Assembly (NCBI GenBank): GCA_013360745.1
Contig: JABWBA010000003.1
Location: 41,873 to 105,872 of the forward strand
Direction of reading: 5' to 3'
DNA: 64,000 bases
From: Chthonomonadales bacterium
GTDB taxonomy: Bacteria > Armatimonadota > Chthonomonadetes > Chthonomonadales > CAJBBX01
The translations under genes and the position numbers were made by a program. Position 1 is the stretch's first letter. Every line of letters starts with the position of its first letter. The notes under the pieces are model-generated. The model did not search any database and had not been told where the DNA came from. It saw nothing but the letters and a program-made list of their open reading frames with translations. Shown in pieces: positions 53,321 to 61,896 of the stretch.

Positions 53321-54706
53321 ATGTCTTCCGCTCTACCTGTCGCACACGCCCCGGAACAGTTCGATCACTGGAGTTCCCGCCAAACCCACCAGGCTGTATG
53401 GCGCATCGCCTGGCCGTCGGTCCTGACGTTCGGCTTGATGACCACCAATAGTATTCTGGACCGGATCTTTGTCGGTCAGCTCGGACGAGACGCCCTTGCG
53501 GCTGTTGGGGTCGGCGGACAGATACTGTTCATCACCGTCTCAGCAGCGATGGCGATTACCGTCGGAACTACTGCCATCGTTGCGCGGTTCACCGGCGCTC
53601 AGGATACCGACGATGCGGCCCATGCCACCGGCCAGTCCATCGGCCTTGGCCTGATCATTGGGATTCTATCCACCGTGGTGTTCTACGTCATCATCGACCC
53701 GATGATGGCGCTCCTGGGCGTACGGGGCGAGGCTGCCCGGCAGTGTCATGCGTTCCTTACCTATGCCCTGCTGGGTCTGGCGCCGGGCAACGTTGGCGCC
53801 GTCATCAGCGCCGCGTTCCGAGGCCTTGGCGACACCCGATCGCCGCTAAAGGTAATGCTCTTCGCCAATCTTATCCACATGTGCGGGGATTGGACCCTGA
53901 TGCTGGGTCACTGGGGTTGCCCGCGGCTGGGACTGGCCGGCGCGGGCATGGCTGCTTCGTCCTCCATGTTCGCGTCCTTGATCGTCTACCTCGCTCTGGT
54001 TCGGCGTTCACCGCTTCGGGAATGCCTCCGTATCGGTTCTCTGATCCCGACTCCGGCATGGTCCTGGCGGATCCTCCGGATCGGCATCCCTGCAGCGATT
54101 GCCGCAGTGGTACGGACGACGTCGATGCTCGGCTTTACGAGCGTACTCGCTCGAACCCCCGAAGGGATCAACGCCCTCGCCGCGCTGCCCATCGGCATGA
54201 CCGCGGAATCGATCGCCTTCATGCCTGGTCTGGGGTTTAGCGTCGCAGCCTCCGCTCTTGTCGGCCAGGCGCTCGGAGCCCGAAGCCCAAACCATGCCTC
54301 ACGCCTCGGTTGGGCCTCCGCCTATCAGGGTGTGGTCGTGATGTCGTTGATGGGCCTCCTGTTCTATGTGGCGGCGGTCCCATTCGCAGGTCTATTCACC
54401 CGTGATCCATCCGTCCTCCGGATCGCCGTCAGTTATCTCCGAATCATGGCGATCTCGGAGCCGATGCTGGCGTTCGGCATGATCCTCACAGGCGCGCTTC
54501 AGGGGGCAGGAGACACAATCCGACCCACAGTGGCGACCGCGATCTCCTTCTGGCTTCTCCGGCTCCCGCTGGCCTGGCTTCTGGCGCTGCACCTCGGCTA
54601 CGGATCGTCGGGCGCGTGGATCGCAATGGCATGCACGACCATCGTAGGAGGTCTCTTCGCGATCGCCCTGTTCCGCGACGGCAAATGGATGGCTCGTGAG
54701 GTCTAG
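53321..54706 (+). CDS. MATE family efflux transporter
   Basis: AWPSVLTFGLMTTNSILDRIFVGQLGRDALAAVGVGGQI; SAAFRGLGDTRSPLKVML; GALQGAGDTIRPT. Confidence 0.93.
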   Translation: MSSALPVAHAPEQFDHWSSRQTHQAVWRIAWPSVLTFGLMTTNSILDRIFVGQLGRDALAAVGVGGQILFITVSAAMAITVGTTAIVARFTGAQDTDDAAHATGQSIGLGLIIGILSTVVFYVIIDPMMALLGVRGEAARQCHAFLTYALLGLAPGNVGAVISAAFRGLGDTRSPLKVMLFANLIHMCGDWTLMLGHWGCPRLGLAGAGMAASSSMFASLIVYLALVRRSPLRECLRIGSLIPTPAWSWRILRIGIPAAIAAVVRTTSMLGFTSVLARTPEGINALAALPIGMTAESIAFMPGLGFSVAASALVGQALGARSPNHASRLGWASAYQGVVVMSLMGLLFYVAAVPFAGLFTRDPSVLRIAVSYLRIMAISEPMLAFGMILTGALQGAGDTIRPTVATAISFWLLRLPLAWLLALHLGYGSSGAWIAMACTTIVGGLFAIALFRDGKWMAREV

Positions 54707-56477
54707 CGTGGCCAACGAGCGATCCATACCGTCCGGTAACCTTATGCGGCTCGTGAGCGTCCTATGTATGAATCTCGCGCTGACTCCAGTCTTTCCTGTA
54801 ACTGCGCAGCGAACCACCGCCCTGCCTTACGCCCACGAGGCGATTGGATATCTCGAACAGGGTGATACGGCGCGGGCGGCGGCGAGAGTGCAGGACGGCC
54901 TGAAGGCCGTACCTGCGAGTACGCTCCTTCATAATATGGCCGGTGCGGTCCTGTTGCTCACCGAGGACCTTGCCGGCAGCGAGAAAGCCTTTTCGGAGGC
55001 CCTGCATCTGGCTCCGACCGACGCCCTAGCCGAGTATGGTCTGGCGGTCGTAGATCTCGCACGGGGCCGTCTCGATTCGGCGGGCCGAAGCCTGGACGCC
55101 CTCAGTCCAGGAGCCGATCCGGGCGTGCGCGAGCTGGCCCGCCAGTACCTCGGACTGCTGATGGGCTCCCCGCCTCCAACCTCCGTCGCTCTGCCGGCCT
55201 ATCTGGATCCCGGCAGGCTCGGGCTGGAAGCGGCCAGCGCCCTCCAGCGAAAGGATCGGGAAACTGGTCTGGAGCGGGTTCGGAGGATCATGGCCGACCC
55301 GACGACCGCAAGGTATTCGGAACCGATCGCCCCTCTCATGACCTACGATGCCCACCGCCCACTGGCGTTCGCCTCGCCCCGACTGCGCGGTATCAAACTA
55401 CAATCGGCCAGGCGCGATGACCGTAATGTCCTTAGCGGCTCAACGCCTTTACGAGCCGAGGGCATCGACGGGGGTTTCGTATCCTTTCGGGTCGATGGAG
55501 AGCTGATCTCCGTGGTTAACGCCCGCCCCTATACGACGGTCTGGGACACCACGCGGATGCCCAACGGGCCGCATGTAGTCGAGACGGTGATCCATGACAG
55601 CTCAGGACAGGAGGCCAGCGTCCGACGGCGTGAGGTAATAACACGCAATCCTAACGCGCCGCCTTCACCCGATGATCAAGAGATCCGTCAACGTCTATGG
55701 CGTATCCTGGCCTTCCGCCCGAGTAAAGCGTCTACGGCGATGCTGGCGTCGACGATGGAAGCCGATGGCGGCAATGCTGCGGAGGCCTCTCGATGGAGAA
55801 CGACGGCAGCGGCGATTCGACCGGAGGTGGCGACGGGAACTCTGCGCCCAGGGACGCGACTTTCCGCAGGCGCTCCCCTATGGAGAGGTGACCCGACAAA
55901 GCGTGTCGTCGCGCTGACGTTCGATGATGGCCCGAAACCGGGCATCACCGACAAGCTTCTGGCGATTCTGGAGCGCGAAGGGGTCAGGGCGACATTCTTC
56001 GTCATCGGTCGCCATGCAGCTGCGAGCCCCGATTTGCTCGTTCGATTGTTGCAGTCAGGGATGGAGGTGGCCAATCACTCCTATAGCCACCCGAACCTGG
56101 CGCGGATCGGCAGAGAGGAGGCGCGACAGGAGCTGCTCCGCACGAACGCCTGTGTTGCAGATATCCTGGGCCAGGCGCCTCGATGGTTCCGTCCTCCCGG
56201 CGGCAACATATCCGAATCGCTCACGGAGATCGCCCGAGGTCTGGGCCTCCGAGCGTGCATGTGGACGGTGAATGCGGAGGGTATGGAGCTGCTGGGCGCT
56301 GATGCTGTGGTGCGGTACGTCCTTGGCAACGCATCTCCCGGCGCGATCATCCTCCTTCATAACGGGAGGCCCTCGACGGTCACCGCCTTGCCGCGAGTGA
56401 TCCGGGGACTGCGTGAACGAGGCTATCGTTTCGTAACGGTGAGCGAGCTGGCCAACGCCGCTGCTGAATATCGGTAG
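54696..56477 (+). CDS. TPR / Ig-like / polysaccharide deacetylase (NodB) fusion, secreted
   Basis: C-terminal VVALTFDDGPKPGITDKLLAILEREGVRATFFVIG, HSYSHPNL, RWFRPPGGN; N-terminal TPR-like; middle GGFVSFRVDGELISVVNARPYTTVWDTTRMPNGPHVVETVIHDSSG. Confidence 0.88.
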   Translation: MRSSVANERSIPSGNLMRLVSVLCMNLALTPVFPVTAQRTTALPYAHEAIGYLEQGDTARAAARVQDGLKAVPASTLLHNMAGAVLLLTEDLAGSEKAFSEALHLAPTDALAEYGLAVVDLARGRLDSAGRSLDALSPGADPGVRELARQYLGLLMGSPPPTSVALPAYLDPGRLGLEAASALQRKDRETGLERVRRIMADPTTARYSEPIAPLMTYDAHRPLAFASPRLRGIKLQSARRDDRNVLSGSTPLRAEGIDGGFVSFRVDGELISVVNARPYTTVWDTTRMPNGPHVVETVIHDSSGQEASVRRREVITRNPNAPPSPDDQEIRQRLWRILAFRPSKASTAMLASTMEADGGNAAEASRWRTTAAAIRPEVATGTLRPGTRLSAGAPLWRGDPTKRVVALTFDDGPKPGITDKLLAILEREGVRATFFVIGRHAAASPDLLVRLLQSGMEVANHSYSHPNLARIGREEARQELLRTNACVADILGQAPRWFRPPGGNISESLTEIARGLGLRACMWTVNAEGMELLGADAVVRYVLGNASPGAIILLHNGRPSTVTALPRVIRGLRERGYRFVTVSELANAAAEYR

Positions 56478-56676: not shown

Positions 56677-57681
56677 ATGCTTCGACGGACACGAGCGGCG
56701 GTTGTTGTCGGTCTGGGAGCCGCCATGCTAACCTCGGCGTTCGCGGCCCTGGCGGCGCCAGCCGCCGAAAGGGAGCTGCTGGGCGTTCGACTGTGGCGAG
56801 ACTTCGCTACCGTGCTGCGCAAGCACGGCGAGCCTACCCGGGTCGTCCCGGGAATCGCCCTCCCTCCCGAGATCAGCTCCGGCTCCGTGAACGTGAATGT
56901 TCAGATGGGCGCTCCCGGCGGGATGAGCATGGGTATGCCGGGCAGACCCATGATGGGCAGTTCGATGGGGATGATCGGCCCTCCTGGCATGCCGCAGATG
57001 GGCGGTATGTCCAGCGCGGGAGGCATGGCGCCGGGGTTGGCGATGGGCGGCGGCCGCTCGATGCCCAGGGCTGGGGGCAGTAAATCCAAGGACGAAGACG
57101 ATTCGTTTTCGGGCGCTCCCTCTGGAGCGGGCCCTGGCGGACCCATGGGCGGTCCGGCTGGTCTATCGGGCCCTGGCTCCGGTATGAGCGCTCCCCCCGG
57201 GTTGGCGATGGGGTCCGGGATGATGGGCAGCCTTTCGATGGGCCCTGGCATGTTAGGGGGTATGAGATCGGACTTATCCGGTGCGCCCTCGGCCATGGGG
57301 GGCATCGGATCCTCTGCATCAGCCCGATCCCAGGGCCAGATGGCGCTCCCGAGCGAGGATATCAAGGAGACCTGGGTATACGTTCGAGGTCCGCATACGT
57401 TTCAGTTCTTGTTCAATAGGGATGGCCGCGTCGTCAAGATCCAGTCGTTCGGATTGAAGGGCGCCAGCCGCACCTCCCGATCCATTGCGCTCGGCGATCC
57501 CCTATCCCGTGTATACGGTAAATACGGCTGGGCGTCGTCGACCATCAAGCAGGGCGCTTCGCTTGTCCTCGATTACTCACAGAAAGCCCATGTGATCTTC
57601 GATCTACTCGATCGAGGCGACGGGAAAGGCCTGCGAGTGGTCGGCATCACCATCGCTCCGTCGGAAGGTCTCGATCGATGA
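56677..57681 (+). CDS. Gly/Met-rich insert protein, paralog A
   Basis: Signal peptide; LLGVRLWRDFATVLRKHGEPTRVVPG; GM-rich middle; C-terminal LFNRDGRVVKIQSFGLKG...SDGKGLRVVGITIA-type end. Confidence 0.8.
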   Translation: MLRRTRAAVVVGLGAAMLTSAFAALAAPAAERELLGVRLWRDFATVLRKHGEPTRVVPGIALPPEISSGSVNVNVQMGAPGGMSMGMPGRPMMGSSMGMIGPPGMPQMGGMSSAGGMAPGLAMGGGRSMPRAGGSKSKDEDDSFSGAPSGAGPGGPMGGPAGLSGPGSGMSAPPGLAMGSGMMGSLSMGPGMLGGMRSDLSGAPSAMGGIGSSASARSQGQMALPSEDIKETWVYVRGPHTFQFLFNRDGRVVKIQSFGLKGASRTSRSIALGDPLSRVYGKYGWASSTIKQGASLVLDYSQKAHVIFDLLDRGDGKGLRVVGITIAPSEGLDR

Positions 57682-57713
57682 TCGACGGAGGAGAGACGGA
57701 GAGGAGACATTCC

Positions 57714-58784
57714 ATGCTCAGTTTGCGAACGAGCGCCATAACCCTGGTCGCCCTCGGACTGGCCCTTGGGGCAGGGGCGGCGCCCAGGCCTGACAAGGGG
57801 CTCCTGGGCGTCAAGATCCTCGACACCTGGCGCGCGGTCCTCGCCCGTTACGGACAGCCGACCCGAGTGGAGGCCGGCCCGCCCACCAGCGGCTCAGCCT
57901 CGCCAACCACCTCGATCGGAGGCATGGCATCGTTCCCGGGTCCTGGTGGCGGTCGGGGGGTCATGGGCAGTGCGATGGGGATGATGGGACCGGCTGGGGC
58001 TCCCGGCCTTAGGGGTATGGGAGGTATCGGCGGCGGTGCGCCGATGATGCCGAGCATGGGCGGTATGTCCAGCGCAGGCGGCGGTGCGCCGATGATGCCG
58101 AGCATGGGCGGTATGTCCAGCGCGGGCGGCGGTGCGCCGATGATGCCGAGCATGGGCGGTATGTCCAGCGCGGGCGGCGGTGCGCCTCGTGGCCCCAGCA
58201 TGGGAGGCTCGAGTTCCGCAGGGATGATGGGCGGTCTGAGTACACCAGGCCTTCCCCGCGGTCGCGGCTCGATGGGCTCCGGCGGGATGACGTTGCCGGG
58301 TCTTGGAGGTATGGGGCCGAGCATGCCGGGCGGCATGGGCGGAGCTCCGATGCCGGGGGGAATGTCCGGCAGCTCCATGCCAGGAATGCCCTCGGGGCCG
58401 ACGGGCGCAGCGGGCTCGACGTACAGCGGAGCGACGGTCGATCTCGGACCGGACGAGGTCGCATGGGTCTATGAAAAAGGGACCGATACCCGCATCTTTC
58501 TATTCAACAACGAAGGGCGCGTTATTCAGATCCAATCCTTTGGCTATAAGGCAGGCGCCCGGACAGCCAACGGTGTCGCGCTCGGCGATCGAGCCGCCCG
58601 GATCTACACTGTGTACGGATTTCCCGAGCAGACACTCGTTACACCCACAACCCGCACGTTGGATTACAGCAAGAGCGCGAATGTCGCGTTTCAGCTCGCC
58701 GATCGGAGCGATGGTAAGGGGCTGCGTGTGGTCGGCATCACGGTCGCGCTGACCAGGGCGCCCAACCCCGAGAAGCCGGAATAG
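57714..58784 (+). CDS. Gly/Met-rich insert protein, paralog B
   Basis: LLGVKILDTWRAVLARYGQPTRVEAG; GM-rich middle; LFNNEGRVIQIQSFGYKAG...SDGKGLRVVGITVA, clearly paralogous to the preceding gene. Confidence 0.8.
   Translation: MLSLRTSAITLVALGLALGAGAAPRPDKGLLGVKILDTWRAVLARYGQPTRVEAGPPTSGSASPTTSIGGMASFPGPGGGRGVMGSAMGMMGPAGAPGLRGMGGIGGGAPMMPSMGGMSSAGGGAPMMPSMGGMSSAGGGAPMMPSMGGMSSAGGGAPRGPSMGGSSSAGMMGGLSTPGLPRGRGSMGSGGMTLPGLGGMGPSMPGGMGGAPMPGGMSGSSMPGMPSGPTGAAGSTYSGATVDLGPDEVAWVYEKGTDTRIFLFNNEGRVIQIQSFGYKAGARTANGVALGDRAARIYTVYGFPEQTLVTPTTRTLDYSKSANVAFQLADRSDGKGLRVVGITVALTRAPNPEKPE
58029..58187 (+). repeat. 48-bp in-frame tandem repeat (about 3.3 copies)
   Basis: GGCGGCGGTGCGCCGATGATGCCGAGCATGGGCGGTATGTCCAGCGC(A/G) at 58029, 58077, 58125 and a partial copy at 58173; encodes GGGAPMMPSMGGMSSA. 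Confidence 0.95.
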
Positions 58785-58830: not shown

Positions 58831-58858
58831 GAAGGGGTCGGCTCACGCCGGCCCCTTC
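58831..58858 (+). terminator. Hairpin between paralog B and dnaG
   Basis: GAAGGGG-t-CGGC-tcac-GCCG-g-CCCCTTC, 12-pair stem with one wobble; no strong U tract. Confidence 0.5.
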
Positions 58859-58885: not shown

Positions 58886-60763
58886 ATGGAAGTCGATAAG
58901 GAAGGGCTGCGGGAACGGAGCGACATCCTCGACATCGTAGGATCGGTCGTTCAGCTCCAACGACGTGGCCGCAACTATGTCGGTCTCTGTCCGTTCCATC
59001 AGGAGAAGACCCCGAGTTTCAACGTCGATCCGGTTACCCAGAGCTTCAAGTGCTTCGGGTGCGGCGTCTGGGGCGATGTATTTGCCTTTGTTCAGCAGCA
59101 CGAGAATATGAGCTTTATCGAAGCCGCCGAGTACCTCGCGCGACGGGCGGGAGTGGAGTTCGCCCGACCGGGTAGATCGCAGGAGGACCGGGGTCTCGAA
59201 GGCGCGATCTATGAGGCCAACGCCGCCGCAGCCACCCACTTCCGCCGGTGTCTTGAACGGGCGGACAGCGCTGGACGTTATCTGGCGCACCGAGGCCTGA
59301 CCGCGGAAACGATCGAACGCTTTCAGATCGGCTTCGCACCGGATGGGTGGGATGCGCTGGTCGGATACCTTCGCTCTCGAAAGGTCGATCCCGCCGTAGC
59401 GATGGCCGCGGGTCTTCTACAAACCGCTCGAGGCGGCAATCTCATCGATGTATTCCGCAATCGGATCATCTTCCCTATCCATGACGATCAAATGCGGATC
59501 GTCGGCTTCGGCGGCCGAGGTGTCGGCGATGATCCGCCCAAGTATCTGAACACGGGCGAAACGCCGGTGTTCAAAAAGAGCCGGCTGCTGTACGGATTGC
59601 CGTTCGCACGGAGAAGGATCGCCGAGGCTGGCCGCACCCTCTTGATGGAAGGATATATGGATGTAATAGCTGCGCACCAGGGCGGATTGGAGAACGCAGT
59701 GGCCAGTCTCGGAACTGCGTTTACCCCCGAGCATGCGAAGCGAATCGCCAGGCTGTCGCCACGTGTATCGATCGTCTATGACGCCGACAGCGCCGGCATC
59801 AAAGCCGCCCTTAAGGCCGCAGTCGAACTGGAACATAGCGGCCTCGCCGTCCAGATCGTCCAACTTCCGCCCAATGAGGATCCCGACTCCCTCCTCCGAT
59901 CGGGGCAGCCCGACCGACTCCGGCTCGCCATCGATCACGGAATAACTCGAGTTGCGATGGAGCTCGACCTCGCCGTCGAAGGCCAGGGACCGGACAGAGA
60001 AGCGCATCGCGGCGATGTGTTGGCGAAGGTCATACAGATTCTGGCCACCGTGCCGACCCGCACCGAGAGGGAGCTCTATATCGAACGGATATGGCAGATC
60101 CACCCGCTCAGTGTGCAGAGTCCGGCGCTGGCCAAGGAGCAACTCCACCGGGATGCCGAGGATGTTGCGGGTCGGCGCCCTGCCCGATCCATCACGCCTC
60201 GCCGCCCCTACCTGCGCTCGTTCCATCCAGCGCCGCCTCCGCACACAACAGACGAACAACCTCCCTATCCACCGGACCCATCGATCACCGACCGTCGCGG
60301 CTCCATCCCACGACGCCCGGCCCGCGCGGATGTGATGCTCTTTCTGCGCGCCCTTACGTCCGATGCGCTCCGCTCCATTGCCCTCCGCCTGCTGGCCACC
60401 GATGATTACGATCTGGAGCTTGACCGGGCGATCGTCGCCTTTGCGCGCGAAGAGGCCTCCCAGCTGGGCCAGACGGAGGAGGAGTTCGTCCACGCAATCC
60501 GATGCTGCCTGCCTGAGGATCTCGCCGAGAAAGCCATCGGGCGACTGCAGGATATTTCAACCTCCGTCGCGAATGAGCCAATCGATGAGGATGTGCTGAC
60601 CCAGGCCGCAGGACCCATCAAAGAACGGCGAGCGAAGCAGGTCCAGAACGAACTCGCCAGGTTGCTGCAGTCGAAAGTCGAACTAACTGATGATGACCGT
60701 GACCGAGTGCATGAGCTGCACGAGCTGCTGCGGCGTCTGAAAGGCCCGACAGCTCGCCCGTAA
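58886..60763 (+). CDS. dnaG: DNA primase
   Basis: [61 protein letters not shown] (CHC2 zinc finger); [34 protein letters not shown]. Confidence 0.98.
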
Positions 60764-60792: not shown

Positions 60793-61896
60793 ATGGCAAC
60801 CGATAATCTGACAACCTCACCGGAGTTTCAGGAGCTCCTACAGCGCGCATCGGCGCACGGATATCTAACCTACGATGACATCAACGATGTCCTGCCTCCC
60901 GGATGCCTGCCGGTGGACTTCGTAGATGACGTCTTGCAGCAACTGGCGGACGCGGGTATCGATGTCGTCAGTCGCGACCGTGAGCACGAAACAACGGAAC
61001 CTGTTGCCCCCCCCCATGTTGGCCGCGGGCCATCCGCCGACGATGATCTGGCGGCTATCGAGAGCCTTGTCGTCGACGACTCAGTCCGTATGTGGCTGCG
61101 TGAAGTCGGCCGCGTGCCGCTCCTTACGCTGGACCAGGAGCTGGAACTGGCCCGACGGATCGAAAACGGCGACGAAGCCGCAAAGCACGAACTGACACAG
61201 GCGAACCTGCGATTGGTGATATCCATCGCCAAACGCTATACCGGCCGCGGTATGAGCTTCCCCGACCTCATTCAGGAAGGGAACATCGGTTTGATGCGCG
61301 CGGTGGCCAAGTTCGACTTCCGCAAGGGCTTCAAGTTCAGCACCTATGCGACGTGGTGGATACGCCAATCCATCACTCGAGCGATCGCAGATCAGGGCAG
61401 GACGATCCGCATTCCGGTCCATATGGTCGAGACGATCAACCGCTTCTTCCGCGCCAGCAGCCGGCTCCTTCAGCAGCTCCAACGGGAGGCCACCGTCGAG
61501 GAGCTGGCCCGCGAGCTGGAGATGCCCGTTGAGCGGGTCGAGGATATTCGCAGAATCGCACCGGAGACGCTCTCACTCGAAAGCCCTATCGGCGAGGAAG
61601 AGGATAGCCCGCTCGGCGATTTCGTCGAGGATCATCAGACGGTCACACCCACCGAGGCCGCGTCGTATCTGATCATGCGCGAGAAGATCGACGAAGTCCT
61701 GGACCATCTGTCGCCCAGAGAGCGAGATGTTCTGATCATGCGGTTTGGCCTCGATGGTGGTTGTTCCCGAACGCTCGATGAAGTCGGCCGCCATTTCCGT
61801 GTGACGCGGGAGCGGATTCGCCAGATCGAAGCTAAGGCCCTGCGAAAGCTGCGGAATCCGCAGCAAAGCGGCAACCTGCGCGACTATCTCGCATAA
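60793..61896 (+). CDS. rpoD: Primary RNA polymerase sigma factor (RpoD/SigA)
   Basis: [106 protein letters not shown]. Confidence 0.98.

Follow-up and report, generated by a model that had tools for sequence, protein, structure and literature searches.

The MMSO resembles the locus studied here in that dnaG and rpoD are linked, the gene at the 5' end is specific to the lineage, and a hairpin precedes dnaG in many cases. In E. coli, rpsU occupies the place before dnaG. In Gram-positives the first gene varies, being yqxD in B. subtilis and serp1130/serp1129 in S. epidermidis, and in many Gram-negatives a Rho-independent terminator separates rpsU from dnaG (PMC2824700). The window, which is the whole stretch of 64,000 nucleotides from a Chthonomonadales bacterium that was analysed, differs from the MMSO in that the 5' gene encodes an exported protein, here present as two copies named A and B. 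Among the proteins compared with them by fold, BLIP is built from two such small alpha/beta units, and in proteins of the SAV1118 type the CAP-associated domain precedes a CAP domain.

Anatomy and genomic position of the two paralogues

A and B are adjacent ORFs on the plus strand (Table 1) and constitute the only copies of the family in the window's own genome; with C-blocks of about 100 residues that are 50% identical, they are tandem paralogues, as the sequence-only reading had proposed. Both open with a Sec-type signal peptide, followed by the N-block (LLGV...G.PTRV), the insert and the C-block, and the earlier description of two conserved blocks flanking an internal low-complexity insert, mostly of G, M, P, S and A, is thereby confirmed. 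The composition of the insert is G.27, M.14, P.12, S.17 and A.10 in A, and G.34, M.16, P.13, S.15 and A.09 in B. The helix at the start of repeat unit 1 in A was placed by the equivalent helix in the AlphaFold2 models of B and of a homologue with a short insert (L066). B has an earlier in-frame ATG at 57678, overlapping the stop of A. The tandem repeat within the B insert is a recent expansion. Antisense ORFs over the insert (e.g. 57848–58378 on the minus strand) were discarded, since they arise from its G/C-rich codons and the conserved blocks settle the reading on the plus strand. The promoter-like matches found on the minus strand consist of copies of the 48-bp repeat and carry no meaning.

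Table 1. Positions in the window of the two paralogues, their parts and the neighbouring genes.
Feature	Position	Strand	Remarks
TPR + polysaccharide deacetylase	54696-56477	+	found upstream in some families
Paralogue A, exported protein with Gly/Met-rich loop	56677-57681	+	334 aa from own ATG
A signal peptide	about residues 1-27		SPase I type, without lipobox; predicted from sequence
A start of repeat unit 1 = N-block	56776-56844	+	LLGVRLWRDFATVLRKHGEPTRV; helix + G-P turn
A insert, Gly/Met/Ser/Pro/Ala-rich	56851-57354	+	168 aa, inside repeat unit 1
A remainder of repeat unit 1	57361-57468	+	W.Y...F.FN..GRV..IQSFG strands
A repeat unit 2	57469-57666	+	uninterrupted
A C-block	57361-57666	+	
Paralogue B, exported protein with Gly/Met-rich loop	57714-58784	+	356 aa from ATG preceding signal peptide
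B start of repeat unit 1 = N-block	57801-57869	+	LLGVKILDTWRAVLARYGQPTRV
B insert, Gly/Met/Ser/Pro/Ala-rich	57876-58448	+	191 aa, predicted disordered
Tandem repeat within B insert	58029-58186	+	48-bp unit x 3.3 copies, 99% matches
B remainder of repeat unit 1	58452-58559	+	
B repeat unit 2	58560-58757	+	uninterrupted
B C-block	58452-58757	+	
GC-rich hairpin between B and dnaG	58831-58858	+	GAAGGGGTCGGC-TCAC-GCCGGCCCCTTC; without T-run
dnaG (DNA primase)	58886-60763	+	conserved downstream neighbour
rpoD (primary sigma factor)	60793-61896	+	conserved downstream neighbour

One or two copies of the family gene are located directly upstream of dnaG and on the same strand at 57 loci, representing 32 of the 37 sampled families (counts that rest on tool-assigned family labels and on the loci fetched), and rpoD comes next in most. 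Adjacency to dnaG is missing in families f3, f7, f10, f21 and f22. In the f3 genome G015, dnaG is found at 0.72 Mb and the gene pair at 2.21 Mb, and since the link is broken there, the operon position is not essential in f3, where the pairs mostly remain beside the polysaccharide deacetylase. The genome of Chthonomonas calidirosea has been described as lacking the usual operons (PMC4959169). The TPR and polysaccharide deacetylase gene adjoins the family gene in members of f1, f2, f3, f5, f19, f35 and f37, a PBP transpeptidase is encoded upstream at L065 and a divergent murJ is found at L100, neighbours that hint at an envelope or peptidoglycan context.

The gap between B and dnaG is 101 bp, and the median over the 57 loci is 89 bp. 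A pattern scan did not call the hairpin in the window a terminator, owing to the missing T-run; from its sequence it is a possible attenuator. All nine f1 gaps can be folded by eye into a long stem, followed by T-runs in some, and folding was better than in 15 shuffles for 16 of 38 gaps, which is a coarse test. In 12 families the sampled gap is shorter than 60 bp, leaving little room for a hairpin, and a search of Rfam gave no match.

Two folded units in a phylum-wide family

The N- and C-blocks, presented in the sequence-only reading as a pair, are both conserved, but instead of independent domains they are two copies of one repeat, of which the first is interrupted. When the core alignment of 87 proteins was split into the N-block plus the first half of the C-block and the second half of the C-block, profile-profile comparison of units 1 and 2 gave an hhalign probability of 97.7% and an E-value of 2.1e-12. 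The protein core is two copies of one unit of about 62 residues with the consensus G(I/V).LG....V...YG.P.......Y......F......V..I, and the insert splits the first copy between the G-P turn and the W.Y strand, leaving unit 2 intact. This two-unit architecture is well supported. In the AlphaFold2 model of L066 the core has a pLDDT of mostly 90–98 and forms two units of a helix and strands, with the insert near or below 50, and the model of B likewise shows mostly 90–98 in the core and 32–52 in nearly all 10-residue blocks of the insert. As modelled, the insert is a disordered, length-variable loop in the first of two similar folded units.

Foldseek searches against the PDB gave SAV1118 (4h0a), YjgB (4ygt) and YfeY (2qzb) as the top three, with probabilities of 0.99–1.00 and E-values of 3e-4 to 1e-2. 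With either model as query, SAV1118 came out on top at a probability of 1.00 and E-values of 2.9e-4 to 1.6e-3, but with TM-scores of 0.19–0.37, low partly because the query contains the disordered insert; by target, the best TM-scores were 0.22–0.31 for SAV1118 and 0.39–0.42 for single-domain matches. SAV1118 (PF14504) would have the tandem small alpha/beta units in common with A and B but is without the Gly/Met loop, and A and B in turn contain no CAP domain (Pfam, above cut-off). YjgB (DUF4309) shows the same unit fold with a probability of 0.99–1.00, and YfeY (DUF1131) is matched with a probability of 1.00, but such an insert is found in neither of them, and YfeY is an E. coli protein of another family. 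YjgB is not known to adjoin dnaG. BLIP-I is matched weakly (probability 0.12–0.47), and proteins of the BLIP-I/BamE (SmpA-OmlA) kind differ from A and B, which have neither a PF04355 match nor a lipobox; as far as shown, their function is unrelated to that of the Armatimonadota protein, and a literature search for work linking BamE with BLIP found nothing.

No model in Pfam or NCBIfam passes its cut-off in A or B, whether whole proteins or joined N- and C-blocks are searched, in line with the earlier remark that no family of this layout has been described, and a PDB sequence search with the family profile gave no match. CAP_assoc_N (PF14504) is weakly matched by 6 of 52 members (best E 0.017), DUF4309 (PF14172) by 2 members (best E 0.02) and DUF1131 with a best member E-value of 0.094, all below cut-off, and A scores 13.5 bits with DUF2845 (PF11006) against a cut-off of 21. 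The joined core of B matched GWxTD at 0.001, but the other members did not confirm this, with matches in 2 of 52 and a best value of 0.045. Since the sequence profiles remain under cut-off, the protein is placed in a wider superfamily by fold and not in a named family, and according to the models it would be a variant of a known fold superfamily (BLIP/CAP-associated/DUF4309-like).

Relatives were found by whole-protein search in 45 of 61 Armatimonadota genomes, and a profile of the C-block (A3) matched 263 of 291, including 188 of the 194 that are near-complete (completeness of 90% or more, contamination of 5% or less). The protein is thus a core exported protein of Armatimonadota, nearly universal in the phylum, the profile counts referring to Armatimonadota genomes only. 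Position lends support to most of the weak matches seen in distant families (E 1e-7 to 1e-11), since most of these genes, too, precede dnaG. Scanning of genome contigs for DNA patterns with B alone gave nothing, most of the search patterns having fallen in the insert; with nine closer C-blocks, and built on just two motifs from the closest families, the scan gave 12 loci, which belong to Armatimonadetes/Chthonomonadales where a taxon is named, two being labelled "bacterium" only. None was found in the plasmids, phages and viral contigs searched. A literature search, thin on subscription journals, found no paper on this protein, and the family is unnamed, its phylum-wide position being apparently undescribed.

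When 47 cores were placed in a tree, the pairs of f1 fell in a different clade from those of f3, indicating that the tandem duplication arose more than once. Orthologues of both A and B can be recognized in G010, and in G007 an A orthologue is followed at the contig end by the start of a B-like gene. Two f17 loci (L117:5180-7849 and L121:6416-9175) contain ORFs of 889–919 aa with two separate C-block matches each, and look like fused tandem copies.

The insert and what it might be

The insert statistics are based on 89 proteins carrying both blocks, with 11,318 insert residues pooled. The survey of insert length among relatives that had been proposed beforehand gave 28–229 aa with a median of 126, and the pooled residues are 33% G, 13.5% P, 11% A, 10.7% M and 6.8% S, with D, E, K and R making up 6.4%. 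These 89 proteins come from families across the phylum and all have the two blocks in one order with one kind of insert, so the layout is not due to chance, and together with the matches in 263 of 291 genomes this refutes the alternative that the insert is assembly noise or specific to one strain. A few members have a short insert that is not rich in Gly (L105, the second copies in L110 and L111, and L098), and a long loop is therefore not strictly needed. L105:6810-7409 is a natural loop-less member, in an f14 genome of 1.5 Mb that keeps the gene before dnaG with an insert of 30 residues. In three f3 loci (L047:7189-8484, L048:6957-8201 and L069:1-1226) one paralogue has an extra C-terminal tail of GPGMMGPGG repeats, outside the fold.

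Between close orthologues dN/dS was 0.03–0.18 in the insert and 0.00–0.06 in the core in the measurable pairs, several others having saturated synonymous sites and giving no ratio, and alignment of low-complexity sequence is uncertain. Indels between orthologues are nearly all inside the insert. Judged from these sequences, the insert appears to be under purifying selection at the protein level, constrained, less than the core. At L042:2598-3550 (G006) the Gly/Met insert contains a frame break that its close relatives do not have, possibly an assembly error within the repeat.

An insert produced by selfish or neutral growth, that is, by expansion of a DNA repeat tolerated at a loop and with no function of its own, would account for the 48-bp repeat of B, for the range of lengths and for the concentration of indels, but it is unlikely in view of the low dN/dS, the composition class preserved over most of the phylum, and the protein still being rich in G, P, A and M where codons have long diverged. 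A collagen- or elastin-like fibre, in which the insert trimerises or coacervates into an extracellular or envelope matrix, agrees with the P+G content of 46%, with PGM and MPG motifs that are 4 times as frequent as in shuffled inserts, with an overall period of three in Gly (weak, 0.42 against 0.35 shuffled at lag 3), with 13 consecutive G-X-Y in L046 and with the Pfam Collagen model (PF01391), matched by 3 members only (best 4.4e-4). G-X-Y runs are however significant (p<0.01) in only 10 of 89 proteins, the median longest run is 4, and the run of 7 in B is not significant (p 0.055), showing that a triple helix is not general; a fibre of this kind is not very probable.

The Met density had been likened to that of Cu/Ag-binding or redox-buffering segments. 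Such an insert would bind Cu(I)/Ag(I) through thioethers or be oxidised sacrificially, with the folded part as carrier, and in its favour are a Met content that is 14–16% in A and B and reaches 21% in relatives, compared to 1.5% in both conserved blocks, and MxxM and MxxxM at 1.3–1.4 times the shuffled frequency. SilE-type binders combine His with Met. Disordered Met-rich periplasmic metal binders such as SilE exist (PMC5008109), and resemble the insert in being disordered, Met-rich and exported, but the insert here is nearly free of His and lies inside a fold. Met is high in the inserts of f1, f2, f13, f15 and f16, but 0–5% in many others whose insert is otherwise alike (absent in L064 and L066, 1–5% in many lineages), MxM is depleted (0.54 of shuffled), the pooled inserts contain 3 Cys and 5 His, and no metal-handling family was found among ten proteins scanned, four from the window and six neighbours of relatives. 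The insert does not conserve Met, His or Cys, which weakens the metal reading, and for the family as a whole it is unsupported and quite unlikely; a lineage-specific metal role may exist in the Met-rich members. A fourth alternative is a counterpart of BamE, with the two small units acting on the Omp85 machine for outer-membrane assembly. The small periplasmic alpha/beta fold of the wider BLIP/BamE kind, the near-universal occurrence in single or double copy, and a genome with Omp85 and without a PF04355 match all point in this direction, but we hold it to be highly unlikely, since lipobox-like matches occur in 7 of 89 proteins and in neither A nor B, BamE (PF04355) is absent among the Pfam families matching 52 members at E<=1, Omp85 is located on a different contig (C65 vs C21), and most bacteria with Omp85 have no BamE (Omp85 in 7 of the control genomes, BamE in 3).

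Proposed role in the envelope

We give about even weight to the reading that A and B are exported envelope proteins with a two-unit core and a flexible G/P/M loop, having a binding or scaffold role. Columns that are invariant or nearly so hold G, P, Y, V, L, F, I and T and one E; most conserved residues are fold residues and there is no invariant catalytic-looking polar set, which makes a binding or scaffold protein most likely, whereas the fold matches, with a best E-value of 3e-4, are statistically weak and count against this reading. The scaffold or spacer function is suggested by the absence of catalytic residues and by the composition of the loop. The proteins would be exported by the Sec pathway and released by signal peptidase I into the periplasm or to the surface. 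According to profile self-comparison and the models, the mature protein consists of two tandem small alpha/beta units (strand, helix, strands). Composition and pLDDT show that the loop following the unit 1 helix has grown into a disordered and almost uncharged chain of Gly, Pro, Met and Ala, 30–230 residues long. The folded units might dock on an envelope partner, without enzymatic activity, and the loop might act as a flexible spacer and/or a segment for weak self-association, free in length but selected for composition, with Met supplying flexible hydrophobic side chains. The window's own genome encodes Omp85 and is therefore likely to specify an outer membrane; Fimbriimonas has LPS genes (PMC4072686). 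The fixed place before dnaG-rpoD suggests a supply tied to growth, and where a hairpin precedes dnaG the protein could be made in excess of primase, as rpsU is in Gram-negative operons.

A bolder version, which we consider improbable, is that this is a possibly essential envelope protein that defines the phylum and has a BLIP-like scaffold of two units, with the self-associating loop forming an elastic or condensate-like layer and with production wired into the operon of primase and sigma factor; if true, this wiring would match envelope growth to replication and transcription. Armatimonadota are widespread and little studied. The protein, nearly universal among them and encoded in an operon setting that ranks with the most conserved in bacteria, probably belongs to the core of their envelope biology; it has no name in Pfam or NCBIfam and can be used as a marker of the phylum. 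With its place and most of its composition fixed but its length free, the loop offers a natural experiment on the effect of low-complexity inserts within folds, and the pattern that the gene before dnaG differs by lineage now extends to an exported protein.
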